From the NCBI GenBank assembly GCA_011049795.1, contig DRHD01000028.1, positions 1-20,976 on the forward strand: a stretch of DNA of 20,976 nt, given 5' to 3'. The stretch is from Porticoccus sp. (GTDB taxonomy: Bacteria; Pseudomonadota; Gammaproteobacteria; Pseudomonadales; Porticoccaceae). Positions 1 through 4,799 of this stretch are shown here, piece by piece. A program made the translations under genes and the position numbers. Under the pieces are notes generated by a model. It was given only the letters and a program-made list of their open reading frames with translations. It was not told where the DNA came from and searched no databases. Numbering within the stretch: position 1 is the first letter of the stretch; every line of letters starts with the position of its first letter.

Positions 1-317
1 TCAGGGTAGGCATGAAACCGTTTTGTGTCGGCCCCACGGCTGACGTGCAGGTAAAGCGACAGGTTGCCTGATCCATTTTTTTCAATGAGGTTATCGCAGA
101 CGTCTTTCCATTGCTGGTGTGACCAGCCCAGTTCGATACCAACAGCCTCCATACCATTGTTCATACGGTCAATATGCGGTACAAAACCGATCATTTGTCC
201 GTTATAGGATGGCACGACTTCATAGATACCATCACCAAACAGGAACCCTCTGTCCATGGGAGATATTTTTGCTTCTGCCATTGGCAAGTAGGCATCGTTC
301 AGATAAACAATACTCAT
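1..317 (-). CDS. dat: D-amino-acid (D-alanine) aminotransferase, partial
   Basis: This is the N-terminal 105 residues of a PLP-dependent class IV (branched-chain fold) aminotransferase; the rest lies beyond base 1. Family members move the amino group of D-alanine and other D-amino acids to 2-oxoglutarate, giving D-glutamate. The reading MSIVYLNDAYLP, then a segment with MDRGFLFGDGIYEV at about residues 21-34, is the characteristic start of this family. The ATG at 317 is preceded by AGGTGA at a normal ribosome-binding distance. It is the last gene seen on the minus strand after the oxoprolinase/cyclase genes, separated from them by 268 bp, so it may have its own promoter. Branched-chain aminotransferase or aminodeoxychorismate lyase are alternatives in the same fold. 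The D-amino-acid assignment is favoured by the N-terminal sequence and the D-glutamate context. The catalytic lysine is not in the window. Confidence 0.85.
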   Translation of the reverse strand, partial: MSIVYLNDAYLPMAEAKISPMDRGFLFGDGIYEVVPSYNGQMIGFVPHIDRMNNGMEAVGIELGWSHQQWKDVCDNLIEKNGSGNLSLYLHVSRGADTKRFHAYP

Positions 318-374
318 CGCATCACCTAATTGCCTGTCCATTTTATTCCCACCCCGTTCATTCCCGCCTCTTTC

Positions 375-423
375 ATGTCGGTTTATTTAATGTCAGTTTG
401 TTTACTTAATGTCCGTCTGATTA
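375..423. repeat. Three imperfect tandem repeats in dat leader region
   Basis: Three adjacent units begin ATGTCGGTTTATTTA (375), ATGTCAGTTTGTTTACTTA (390) and ATGTCCGTCTGATTA (409). They lie in the AT-rich 268-bp gap between the DUF4392 gene and dat. TATAAT-like hexamers occur on the minus strand at 441-436 and 458-453, and a small inverted repeat (AGTGC/GCACT) lies at 464-479. I see no convincing -35 box or T-tract terminator here. The function is unknown. Confidence 0.5.
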
Positions 424-585
424 ACGATCTATTTAATTATAAACACTACTTAATTATAGATATAGTGCCTTCAAGCACTGATATTGTGACTGCTGAAATG
501 GCCAAAGAAAAACCCAGAAATACTATCAGTGAGGCCCTAATCAGGCAAAGTAAATTCCTTCTTATTTTGTAAGACAGGTGGCCTG

Positions 586-1458
586 TTATTCCGAGTCCTG
601 ACAAAACCCGGTTAAACGCCTTAATTCCTGTATCAGTCGCTCGCTCTTTTCACAGGGTAAGCCATCTTCAGTGAGTGTTTTGTTGCCAGTCACACCATCA
701 ACACTGCCATGCTGGGAAAGGTACCCCAATACGGCCTGGTTATCCCAATCCTTCAGCATATCTTCGCCCGTCCAATGTGACACCATGGCGATTAACCCGT
801 GGGCAGCCCAGTTGGAGACATCGGCAATAATCAACTCATCACAGGTGGTCGCAGAAGGAATAATATCCAGAGATGACAGCGCACCAGCGATGTTGCCCAT
901 ACCTACTTCATTGCCTCCATCACCAATAGACACCGTAGGGCAATTGGCCATTTTCAAGACATCATCAAAGCAAATAGTAAGGGGGCTAATATCCACACCA
1001 TGCATATTGTAGTAACAACCATCTTCAGCCCGGCCGGGTAGCTCTATTGTCATCACTAATTCTGGCTGGAAAAGATCAATAACCTGTTGTGCGTGGCCCC
1101 GTTGAACTCCCTGTGTGACACTCTCTCGTTGATTAACATCGAGTCGATGTACCCGATACTCATCACCCAGAGCCCTCGCTAATGGATTTCCGCAAACCAG
1201 TACCGGTGTTGAACCCAATGCTTCCATCGCCCGATAAAGTGCAATGGCACCCAATGGACCATCCGTTTCAAAGGTGTCTTTTACCGGGAATCCGGTGCTA
1301 ATCAGTACGGTACCGGTGCAATCCAACATCATTCTGGCCGCACGCATGCAATAGCCTGGCTGTAGTGCAGGCTGTACTGTTTTCATCCCCCGCAGATTGC
1401 GGGCAACCAACAGGTCTTCTATCTTCTGACTGAGAATCAAGTCCTTTGCAGTTGTCAT
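586..1458 (-). CDS. DUF4392 protein, D-glutamate cyclase C-terminal-type domain
   Basis: A 290-residue soluble protein of the DUF4392 family, which forms the C-terminal half of the animal mitochondrial D-glutamate cyclase DGLUCY (D-glutamate to 5-oxo-D-proline plus water). Conserved blocks visible are STGFPV...TDGPLGA (about 54-71), PGRAEDGCYYNM (141-152) and IGDGGNEVGMGN (178-189), a glycine/acid-rich signature of the family. The ATG at 1458 follows AGGAG at good spacing. It lies 76 bp after pxpC on the same strand. The other half of the animal enzyme, DUF1445, is encoded separately by the gene at 4017-4799. Family membership is confident. Catalytic function in this organism, and whether the two proteins form one enzyme, are inference from the fused animal protein and from context. 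Confidence 0.85.
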   Translation of the reverse strand: MTTAKDLILSQKIEDLLVARNLRGMKTVQPALQPGYCMRAARMMLDCTGTVLISTGFPVKDTFETDGPLGAIALYRAMEALGSTPVLVCGNPLARALGDEYRVHRLDVNQRESVTQGVQRGHAQQVIDLFQPELVMTIELPGRAEDGCYYNMHGVDISPLTICFDDVLKMANCPTVSIGDGGNEVGMGNIAGALSSLDIIPSATTCDELIIADVSNWAAHGLIAMVSHWTGEDMLKDWDNQAVLGYLSQHGSVDGVTGNKTLTEDGLPCEKSERLIQELRRLTGFCQDSE

Positions 1459-1478
1459 AGCACTCTCCTGGTAGTGCT
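1459..1478 (-). promoter_or_regulatory. Hairpin carrying the RBS of the DUF4392 gene
   Basis: A perfect 6-bp inverted repeat (AGCACT / AGTGCT in the minus-strand RNA) with an 8-base loop directly abuts the ATG at 1458. The loop contains the Shine-Dalgarno AGGAG. It could tune translation initiation. A six-base stem is short, so a chance match is possible. Confidence 0.4.
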
Positions 1479-3914: not shown

Positions 3915-3943
3915 ACATAGTTACCTTCATATATAAGTTACCT
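3904..3943 (-). promoter_or_regulatory. Duplicated translation start region and mini-ORF before pxpA
   Basis: On the minus strand AGGTAACT occurs twice (3943-3936 and 3926-3919), each followed by an ATG, as if the ribosome-binding region had been duplicated in 17-base units. The upstream copy has the stronger GGAGG and would start at ATG 3930 an eight-codon peptide (MKVTMYGG) ending in TAA at 3906-3904, just inside pxpA. It could feed ribosomes to pxpA by reinitiation. Translation of the peptide is inference. Confidence 0.4.
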
Positions 3944-3966
3944 CCGGTAATACTCTGTTAAGCCTA

Positions 3967-3998
3967 TAACTTAAGTACTCTCTAACTTAAGTGCTCTC
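3967..3998. repeat. 16-bp tandem repeat between the DUF1445 gene and pxpA
   Basis: Two head-to-tail copies, TAACTTAAGTACTCTC (3967-3982) and TAACTTAAGTGCTCTC (3983-3998), differ by one base. Each contains the palindrome CTTAAG. They fill much of the 102-bp gap upstream of pxpA. They could be a protein-binding site or simple slippage; I cannot tell which. Confidence 0.6.
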
Positions 3999-4016
3999 GT
4001 TAAAATAGCACGTTTA

Positions 4017-4799
4017 TCATTCAGCTAATTCGCTGTTTTTCAGGTCAGTGACCAGCATACAGCCTGGACTGTGGGTGATACACAGGGGCGGCTTGGCCTG
4101 CTCCAGCGCCACCTGTGGTGTGACCCCACAGGCCCAGAATACGGGTAGTTCGTCAGGCTTGATGGTTACCATGTCGCCAAAGTCGGGGCTATTGATATCA
4201 TTGACACCAATGAGAGAAGGATCTCCCACATGAATCGGGGCGCCATGTACCGAGGGGAATTGAGTGCAGATTTGAGCAGCACGATTAGCATCAGCTTCCA
4301 CAAATGGCCGCATACTCACCACCATCTTGCCACCAAATCGTCCCGCTGACTCGCAATCTATATTGGTGCGATACATGGGGACATTGACCCCTTCGGTGAC
4401 ATTCCGTACCTCGAGACCATCTGCCAACAATGCCTCTTCAAAGGAGAAGGAGCAACCCAACACAAACGTCACCAAATCGTTACGCCACAGGCCGCTAATA
4501 TCTGACACCTCATCCACCACCACCCCCTCTTTGAAAATACGGTAACTAGGAAGGTCAGTGCGAATATCCACGTCTTCACCTAACAGAGGCAATGTGGGAT
4601 CACCCTTTTCTGCCATTCCAATCAGTGGGCACGGTTTGGGATTGCGCTGGCAAAACTGTAAAAATTCTGTCGCCCAATCACTGGGCAGAATCACGACATT
4701 TCCCTGGACAAATCCAGAGCAAAAACCGGAGGTATTTCCAGTAAACTCACCACGCCGAATCCTGTGGCGCAGCTCAAGCGGCGATAAATCAAGGGACAT
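4017..4799 (-). CDS. ycsI: DUF1445/YcsI protein, D-glutamate cyclase N-terminal-type domain
   Basis: A 260-residue soluble protein of the DUF1445 family, often labelled putative hydro-lyase and called YcsI in B. subtilis, where it also lies beside the pxp (ycsF/kipI/kipA) genes. The same domain is the N-terminal half of animal D-glutamate cyclase. Visible blocks are TSGFCSGFVQGNVVILP (23-39), NPKPCPLIG (53-61), DIRTDLPSYRIF (78-89), FVLGCSFSFEEAL (112-124) and ITHSPGCMLVTDL (241-253). Length is normal for the family. The ATG at 4799 has GGAG six bases upstream. It is 102 bp before pxpA and 108 bp after the deacylase gene, all on one strand. Role as part of a split D-glutamate cyclase with the DUF4392 protein is inference. 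Confidence 0.87.
   Translation of the reverse strand: MSLDLSPLELRHRIRRGEFTGNTSGFCSGFVQGNVVILPSDWATEFLQFCQRNPKPCPLIGMAEKGDPTLPLLGEDVDIRTDLPSYRIFKEGVVVDEVSDISGLWRNDLVTFVLGCSFSFEEALLADGLEVRNVTEGVNVPMYRTNIDCESAGRFGGKMVVSMRPFVEADANRAAQICTQFPSVHGAPIHVGDPSLIGVNDINSPDFGDMVTIKPDELPVFWACGVTPQVALEQAKPPLCITHSPGCMLVTDLKNSELAE

Follow-up and report, generated by a model that had tools for sequence, protein, structure and literature searches.

A conserved operon of separate DUF1445 and DUF4392 genes, 5-oxoprolinase genes and a D-amino-acid aminotransferase gene in Porticoccus, with a putative role in D-glutamate homeostasis

Results

Here, we describe a row of six genes at one end of a 20,976-nucleotide stretch of DNA from Porticoccus sp. 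(assembly GCA_011049795.1, contig DRHD01000028.1; the whole stretch is referred to below as the window). The row occupies positions 1-4799 of the minus strand and consists, in the order of transcription, of DUF1445, the 5-oxoprolinase genes pxpA, pxpB and pxpC, and DUF4392, followed by a class IV aminotransferase assigned as D-amino-acid aminotransferase (DAAT). Gene content and genomic context suggest that it is a D-glutamate homeostasis operon serving both supply and disposal, an interpretation to which we give about even chances. In this model, alanine racemase (Alr), whose gene is expected from the relatives to lie just beyond the window edge, would convert L-alanine to D-alanine, and DAAT would convert D-alanine and 2-oxoglutarate to D-glutamate and pyruvate, providing D-glutamate for peptidoglycan in place of the glutamate racemase MurI. 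Excess or wall-released D-glutamate would be turned into 5-oxoproline by DUF1445 and DUF4392 acting as separate proteins, and PxpABC would open 5-oxoproline to glutamate at the expense of ATP. One inverting step would have to exist, for otherwise the cycle would give back D-glutamate.

All six gene calls of the original prediction, which had been made from the sequence of the window, hold in Pfam and NCBIfam searches. The DUF1445 gene (4017..4799, minus strand) encodes 260 aa matching PF07286 ('D-Glu_cyclase') at E 9e-67 and the NCBIfam 'putative hydro-lyase' family. It is followed on the same strand by pxpA, encoding the LamB/YcsF-type 5-oxoprolinase subunit A (3171..3914; PF03746, E 4.1e-91), which meets the curated NF003816 cut-off (351.3 vs 213 bits), by pxpB for subunit B (2497..3174; PF02682, E 1.1e-67), which meets that of TIGR00370 (172.8 vs 145.55 bits), and by pxpC for subunit C or a relative of it (1535..2500; PF02626, E 3.3e-88), which scores over the broader domain model TIGR00724 (274.6 vs 230.2 bits). 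The DUF4392 gene (586..1458, minus strand; 290 aa) matches PF14336 (GLUCM-like_C) at E 5.6e-68. DUF1445 and DUF4392 are thus two genes 2.5 kb apart, each far over the Pfam gathering score, and their domains are not fused. The 4-base overlaps between pxpA and pxpB and between pxpB and pxpC fit a single transcript; the remaining intergenic gaps of the row measure 102, 76 and 244 bases. The six metal-binding acidic residues listed for the archaeal DUF4392 protein TON_0340 in the available part of PMC5132392 are all kept in the window protein (E64, D66, E139, D180, E184 and D254), and they are invariant in DUF4392 alignments of 9 and 16 sequences.

The aminotransferase gene is cut by the window edge, leaving the N-terminal part (3..341, minus strand; PF01063, E 2.1e-10). 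Its start lies at 341 or, by comparison with the corresponding locus of the nearest genome (L015), more likely at 317, and the fragment covers 113 (or 105) of about 285 residues, the complete protein of the nearest genome having 285. The best NCBIfam models for the fragment are D-amino-acid transaminases (E 1.8e-23 and 9.5e-23), with scores far under their cut-offs, and for the full-length L015 protein these families are still the best, about 70 bits ahead of the next family, which reaches 167.2 bits. At the positions tabulated for canonical D-amino-acid aminotransferases (F26, Y31, V/A33, K/R/P/T35, xYxQ and RxH; PMC10003956) the window protein has F, Y, V, P, LYLH and RFH, that is, by eye, five of the six positions or motifs as tabulated, with H replacing Q in xYxQ.

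The row is strongly conserved. In 17 of 20 loci from relatives all six genes recur with their order unchanged; two of the three deviating loci reach a contig edge, and the third (L027) contains pxpA-DUF4392-DAAT only. We also inspected the best 80 of at least 497 DUF4392 relatives found by profile search in named genomes, a sample that leans to close relatives (Porticoccaceae/SAR92, Marinobacterium, Amphritea, Neptuniibacter, Marinomonas, Oceanospirillum, Leucothrix, Thiothrix and others) and in which partner genes were located by tblastn. The full row is present in order in 62 of these 80 named loci. Eight more hold the row from DUF1445 to DUF4392 but lack a DAAT within 9 kb, and in three of the eight the DNA ends within 0.2 (L077), 2 (L125) and 3.6 kb (L057); in seven of the 10 other loci DUF4392 lies at most 0.8 kb from a contig end. 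The gene for alanine racemase, alr, comes next after DAAT in 18 of the 20 relatives' loci, the other two stopping at a contig edge first. One such copy (L013) scores 360 bits against an alr cut-off of 168, and a second alr match over the cut-off was found in none of the 21 relatives with DUF4392. Of the named loci 34 contain alr; in 30 it comes after DAAT and in four (L062, L069, L075 and L126) it precedes DUF1445, which indicates that alr stayed in the cluster through rearrangement. In the Amphritea-like loci (L079, L086, L088-L091, L093, L110 and L116) a gene resembling pyridoxal-phosphate-dependent lyases lies on the opposite strand between DUF4392 and DAAT; Pfam shows the PALP domain on the L089 copy only, and Lrp- and LysR-like regulators were seen there by eye.

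The co-occurrence of DUF1445 and DUF4392, which the original prediction had put forward as its own test, lies far above chance in two samples, 58 relatives and 348 genomes across the phylum. Because genomes share kinship, p values counted per genome overstate significance, and counts per genus are given where made. Among the relatives, 20 of the 21 genomes with DUF4392 also have DUF1445, against 2 of the 37 that lack DUF4392, the sole exception (G003) having a contig end there; per genus the counts are 6/6 vs 2/29 (p 1.7e-5). In the phylum sample DUF4392 occurs in 10 genomes, DUF1445 in 64 and pxpA in 151. DUF1445 is present in 8 of the 10 DUF4392 genomes vs 56 of 338 others (p 3e-5), and pxpA, the other partner foreseen, likewise in 8/10 vs 143/338 (p 0.02). 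In six of the 10 the two DUF genes share a DNA segment no longer than 20 kb; they are unlinked in G152 and G241, and DUF1445 was not found in G166 and G216. DUF1445 is thus the commoner gene of the phylum sample and often occurs without DUF4392, whereas DUF4392 occurs mostly with DUF1445. A chance neighbourhood is ruled out by these p values together with the row kept in 17/20 and 62/80 loci.

Some loci show unusual forms of the pair. In L182 (G381; 4680-15401, minus strand) a frame of 3573 aa with two Pfam DUF4392 domains and a DUF4781 match stands directly behind a same-strand DUF1445. Stop codons interrupt DUF4392 in L168 (G005; 10531-11366), through decay or sequencing error, and upstream of it only the end of DUF1445 was matched. 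In L183 (G401) a gene resembling D-cysteine desulfhydrase/ACC deaminase (6865-7752), scoring below the curated cut-off, lies just upstream of DUF1445-DUF4392 and hints at D-amino-acid metabolism once more.

The second line of evidence concerns MurI, which most Gram-negative bacteria reportedly use for D-glutamate. With MurI scored as TIGR00067 over its cut-off, it was found in 37 of the 58 relatives; below, one genome with MurI in two pieces (G024) is counted as having it and one of the window's genus with a fragment (G013) as lacking it. No MurI over the cut-off was found in the nearest genome (G001) nor in the congeners G002, G005, G007, G009, G011, G015 and G016, and G001 and several congeners have DAAT and Alr without MurI. 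Among 49 operon-bearing genomes, drawn from 50 of the 80 named loci and with completeness not given, 34 show no MurI over the cut-off, vs 95 of 348 in the phylum sample, the latter being an upper bound since some real MurI score below the cut-off. Half of the 34 (17) show weak matches, 37 bits at best, and the other 17 show none. No match whatever was thus found in 17/49 operon-bearing genomes vs 51/348 of the phylum sample, and within that sample in 5 of 10 DUF4392 genomes vs 46 of 338 others (p 0.008).

Absence of MurI goes together with DAAT. With a line for high-scoring DAAT at 175 bits, set after inspection of the scores (which leave a gap from 178.5 to 159.8 bits), such a DAAT is found in 19 of 20 MurI-less relatives vs 11 of 38 others, and in the lone MurI-less relative without one (G029) the contig breaks off within the operon. 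Taking one genome per genus and excluding the window's genus, the counts are 8/9 vs 3/25 (p 7e-5). Two small MurI-less genomes of the window's genus (G002 and G016) and two of another genus (G021 and G032) have DAAT beside alr, an adjacency confirmed on the DNA for G002, G016 and G021. The MurI-positive genomes G070 and G099, with DUF4392 alone, have no high-scoring DAAT (81 and 150 bits). As MurI is missing in G001 and in 34 of the 49 operon-bearing genomes, we read DAAT as acting with Alr to supply D-glutamate; D-amino-acid aminotransferases can form D-amino acids from others, as stated in the available part of PMC5885031, and DAAT plus Alr is probably the source of wall D-glutamate in these cells, being the simplest account. 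This reverses the direction of the original prediction, in which diverse D-amino acids passed their nitrogen to D-glutamate through DAAT for its breakdown. That the operon alone replaces MurI without DAAT was rejected as a sole account, since four of five MurI-less genomes with no DAAT near the operon have a high-scoring one elsewhere (G095, G104, G105 and G106; 217 to 251 bits). In the MurI-less G047, locus L167 (6115-11064) carries pxpA-pxpB-pxpC, a phosphoribosyltransferase-like gene (by eye), DAAT and alr with no DUF1445 or DUF4392.

The third line comes from family f28 (that of G373), in which DUF4392 was found in 52 of 246 genomes searched and DUF1445 in 46 of the 52 loci. In locus L181 (1-12652, G373) DUF1445 adjoins DUF4392, pxpABC is absent, and the pair is grouped with NamZ (exo-N-acetylmuramidase, Pfam), a fusion of a kinase with N-acetylmuramic acid (MurNAc) 6-phosphate etherase (MurQ), a sodium:solute symporter (SSF), GH3 and an RpiR regulator. 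With L181 queries, tblastn placed murein-catabolism-type genes close to the module in 12 of the 52, spread over eight genera (L179, L180, L181, L199, L200, L208, L209, L212, L216, L225, L226 and L231): MurK/MurQ-like genes in six (L179, L180, L181, L200, L209 and L225), a symporter with a NagZ-like gene in one (L226), and a NagZ-like gene only in five. The nearest such gene lies within 1.3 kb of DUF1445 in seven of the 12 and at 2.6 kb in L226; all 11 loci with a NagZ-like gene carry it on the same strand, 62 to 5171 bases upstream. Curated models, run on L181 and L200, place MurQ over the cut-off in both (425.6 and 416.8 vs 302 bits), NagZ just under it (195 and 183 vs 207 bits) and the kinase far under that of NagK. 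These neighbours favour a role in the handling of cell-wall D-glutamate. The L181 group also includes an FAD dehydrogenase resembling GlcD/YdiJ, which scores under the curated cut-offs and might act on D-lactate derived from MurNAc. In L204 DUF4392 stands at the front instead.

The first same-strand gene upstream of DUF1445 encodes a YbaK-like aminoacyl-tRNA editing domain (4908..5405, minus strand); such a gene stands in front of the module in only 8 of the 80 named loci, so it is probably outside the module. Beyond it lie genes for a Na+/H+ exchanger (5631-6782), a glyoxalase-like protein (6843-7226) and a Yip1-domain protein (7363-7962), an ordinary cbb3 oxidase cluster (8134-17038; COX1, FixO, FixP, FixG, FixH, FixS, metal P-type ATPase and DsbD-like genes), and genes for argininosuccinate synthase (17110-18330), an amidohydrolase (18557-19603) and an RNase T-type exonuclease (19606-20217). 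None of these genes stands out.

Discussion

The stereochemistry of the proposed disposal arm needs attention. Ring opening of 5-oxo-D-proline yields D-glutamate again, so a change of configuration is needed for any net gain, and a PxpABC accepting the D form would merely close an ATP-burning circle. For this reason the part of the original prediction in which D-glutamate is cyclised and then opened to glutamate by a D-accepting PxpABC does not stand; the stereochemical gap it had recognized is real, and deeper than stated, because one inverting step is required. Only one pxpA match was found in the nearest genome, and 5-oxo-L-proline arises spontaneously in cells; PxpABC of that genome should therefore still serve 5-oxo-L-proline. 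This favours a PxpABC that opens the L form plus an epimerase step, which would fall to DUF1445, to DUF4392 or to some enzyme encoded elsewhere. It has also been considered that the operon itself inverts D-glutamate from the wall to L-glutamate in one direction only, driven by ATP and without a racemase. Free D-glutamate, or the gamma-linked D-glutamate of murein peptides through a cyclotransferase-like step, would give 5-oxo-D-proline, which DUF1445 or DUF4392 would turn into 5-oxo-L-proline, and PxpABC would then give L-glutamate. We regard this as improbable.

Other explanations bear on how the two DUF proteins work and on what the operon is for. Mouse DGLUCY converts D-glutamate to 5-oxo-D-proline (PMC5339696, available part), and the original prediction treated DUF1445 and DUF4392 as the halves of one such enzyme. 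Their co-occurrence and four f28 loci in which they are direct neighbours without pxpABC (L181, L183, L218 and L236) support that they belong together; against a joint split enzyme, TON_0340 by itself has weak Mn-dependent phosphatase activity in vitro, with a preference for Mn (PMC5132392, available part). It is conceivable, at rather less than even chances, that the two are sequential enzymes, DUF1445 cyclising and DUF4392 acting before or after it as a metal hydrolase or phosphatase, with the animal fusion joining two steps. The measured phosphatase activity is very low, however, with no natural substrate known, and both the four neighbour loci and L182, with its double-DUF4392 frame behind DUF1445, fit a joint function as well. 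We are still more doubtful of a catabolic operon for growth on murein fragments, a view near to the original prediction, in which D-alanine and D-glutamate collected from old walls would be shuttled for nitrogen by DAAT, D-glutamate being cyclised by DUF1445/DUF4392 and recovered through PxpABC. The NagZ-, MurK/MurQ-, NamZ-, SSF- or RpiR/MurR-like genes near the module in f28 speak for such growth, as does the MurI match in G231, G303 and G373, because of which DAAT is not required for supply there. In the window's lineage, however, alr and DAAT are steady neighbours, the nearest genome lacks MurI, and the f28 pattern does not recur in the window or, as far as their upstream DNA reaches, in the named loci.

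A plain repair function seems quite unlikely, with PxpABC clearing spontaneous 5-oxo-L-proline, DUF1445 and DUF4392 as accessory proteins, and an incidental link to DAAT and alr. It draws on the operon that pxpABC shares with ycsI in B. subtilis (PMC10448178) and on the requirement of pxpTABC for growth of C. glutamicum on 5-oxo-L-proline (PMC13274462), both as given in the available parts of these sources, and the single pxpA match of the nearest genome indicates that PxpABC probably does repair too. An incidental link sits poorly with the full row including DAAT in 62 of 80 loci, with alr at two positions in 34 of 80, and with murein-type genes that recur in eight genera, as random neighbours would not.

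Several observations weigh against the D-glutamate homeostasis operon that we prefer. The status of MurI and alr in the organism of the window is taken from the nearest genome, which is 90% complete, and from congeners, and eight other genomes of the same genus, all with DUF4392, have MurI, as do 15 of the 49 operon-bearing genomes; the operon must accordingly be more than a substitute for MurI. In the opposite direction, family searches found neither DUF4392 nor DUF1445 in the MurI-less G002, G016, G021 and G032, and the MurI-less metagenome-assembled genome G063 is unexplained, its best DAAT reaching only 158 bits. Family assignment is imperfect for two of the genes: pxpC scores below the equivalog cut-off of NF045499 (231 vs 500 bits), and the full-length DAAT of L015 falls below those of TIGR01121 (236.1 vs 277.45 bits), which none of the 58 relatives reached, and NF005209 (245.5 vs 320 bits). 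In three of the 80 named loci (L065, L098 and L111) DUF4392 has no partner on the available DNA, which in L065 and L098 extends less than 2 kb upstream of it. Two loci keep pxpA beside DUF4392 with pxpB and pxpC gone (L027, 9391-10988; L231, 8553-11880), and PxpA may act on its own there. Retention of the operon in MurI-positive genomes, its absence from four MurI-less ones and the loss of pxpB/pxpC suggest that its parts are not tied to one fixed pathway.

The murein neighbours have exceptions of their own. A NagZ-like gene is the sole murein-type gene in five of the 12 positive f28 loci, and in four of these five (L199, L208, L212 and L216, the weakest cases) it is 4.0 to 5.2 kb away from DUF1445; six of the 52 f28 loci are without DUF1445, five of them in one genus and one at a contig edge. 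No murein gene turned up in the 80 named loci, where the DNA available upstream of DUF1445 has a median of about 4.7 kb; at least 5 kb before DUF1445 is available in 38 of 46 f28 loci vs 0 of 70 named loci, so that 12/52 vs 0/80 is an uneven comparison. MurQ, NagZ, NamZ and MurR were not found by Pfam among the 22 window reading frames searched. The link to peptidoglycan in the original prediction is favoured by neighbours in f28 and not by genes of the window or of the named loci, and the earlier interpretation as a whole is partly supported.

Some elements of this system are already known, namely split homologues of GLUCM, the animal fusion, and ycsI with pxpABC. The mammalian mitochondrial D-glutamate cyclase DGLUCY (9030617O03Rik / C14orf159) is built of the same two families as the window genes, PF07286 and PF14336, whereas in the window they are two separate genes, with pxpABC between them here as in 62 + 8 of the 80 named loci. 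YcsI of B. subtilis is presumably a DUF1445 protein; a PF07286 match is present in that genome, and a DUF4392 match was not found in this control genome. The available part of PMC10448178 places ycsI and pxpABC together in the ycs operon (ycsF, ycsG, ycsI, kipI and kipA; pxpABC with mntG), describes YcsG as an Mn importer, in parallel to the Mn preference of TON_0340, and does not name DAAT or alr as members. The available part of PMC5132392, from 2016, notes the animal DUF1445-DUF4392 fusion and the occurrence of both families in bacteria and humans, and a preprint table, as far as available (PMC11580864), gives GLUCM_HUMAN the entries 0 and 6, under columns we interpret as full-length and split gut-microbe homologues. 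Supply of D-glutamate by a D-amino-acid aminotransferase instead of or beside MurI, itself a known arrangement, would here share one operon with a putative module for D-glutamate disposal. In the open-licence literature we found no paper linking this module to DAAT/Alr, loss of MurI or murein-catabolism genes, and none joining 5-oxoprolinase or DUF1445/DUF4392 to MurNAc catabolism clusters (MurQ, NagZ, NamZ and MurR) of the kind found beside it in f28.

If the proposed role is correct, a large group of marine Gammaproteobacteria would route wall D-glutamate through DAAT and Alr and not through MurI. Supply would be coupled to an ATP-dependent salvage, and 5-oxoprolinase would gain a role in wall recycling. 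Should the operon also carry out the inversion to L-glutamate, it would be a disposal arm needed by MurI-less cells and murein eaters alike. The bacterial operons offer each DUF half a genetic setting for testing, which bears on the handling of D-glutamate in animals, and the fate of D-glutamate from bacterial walls, an old question, becomes directly testable.

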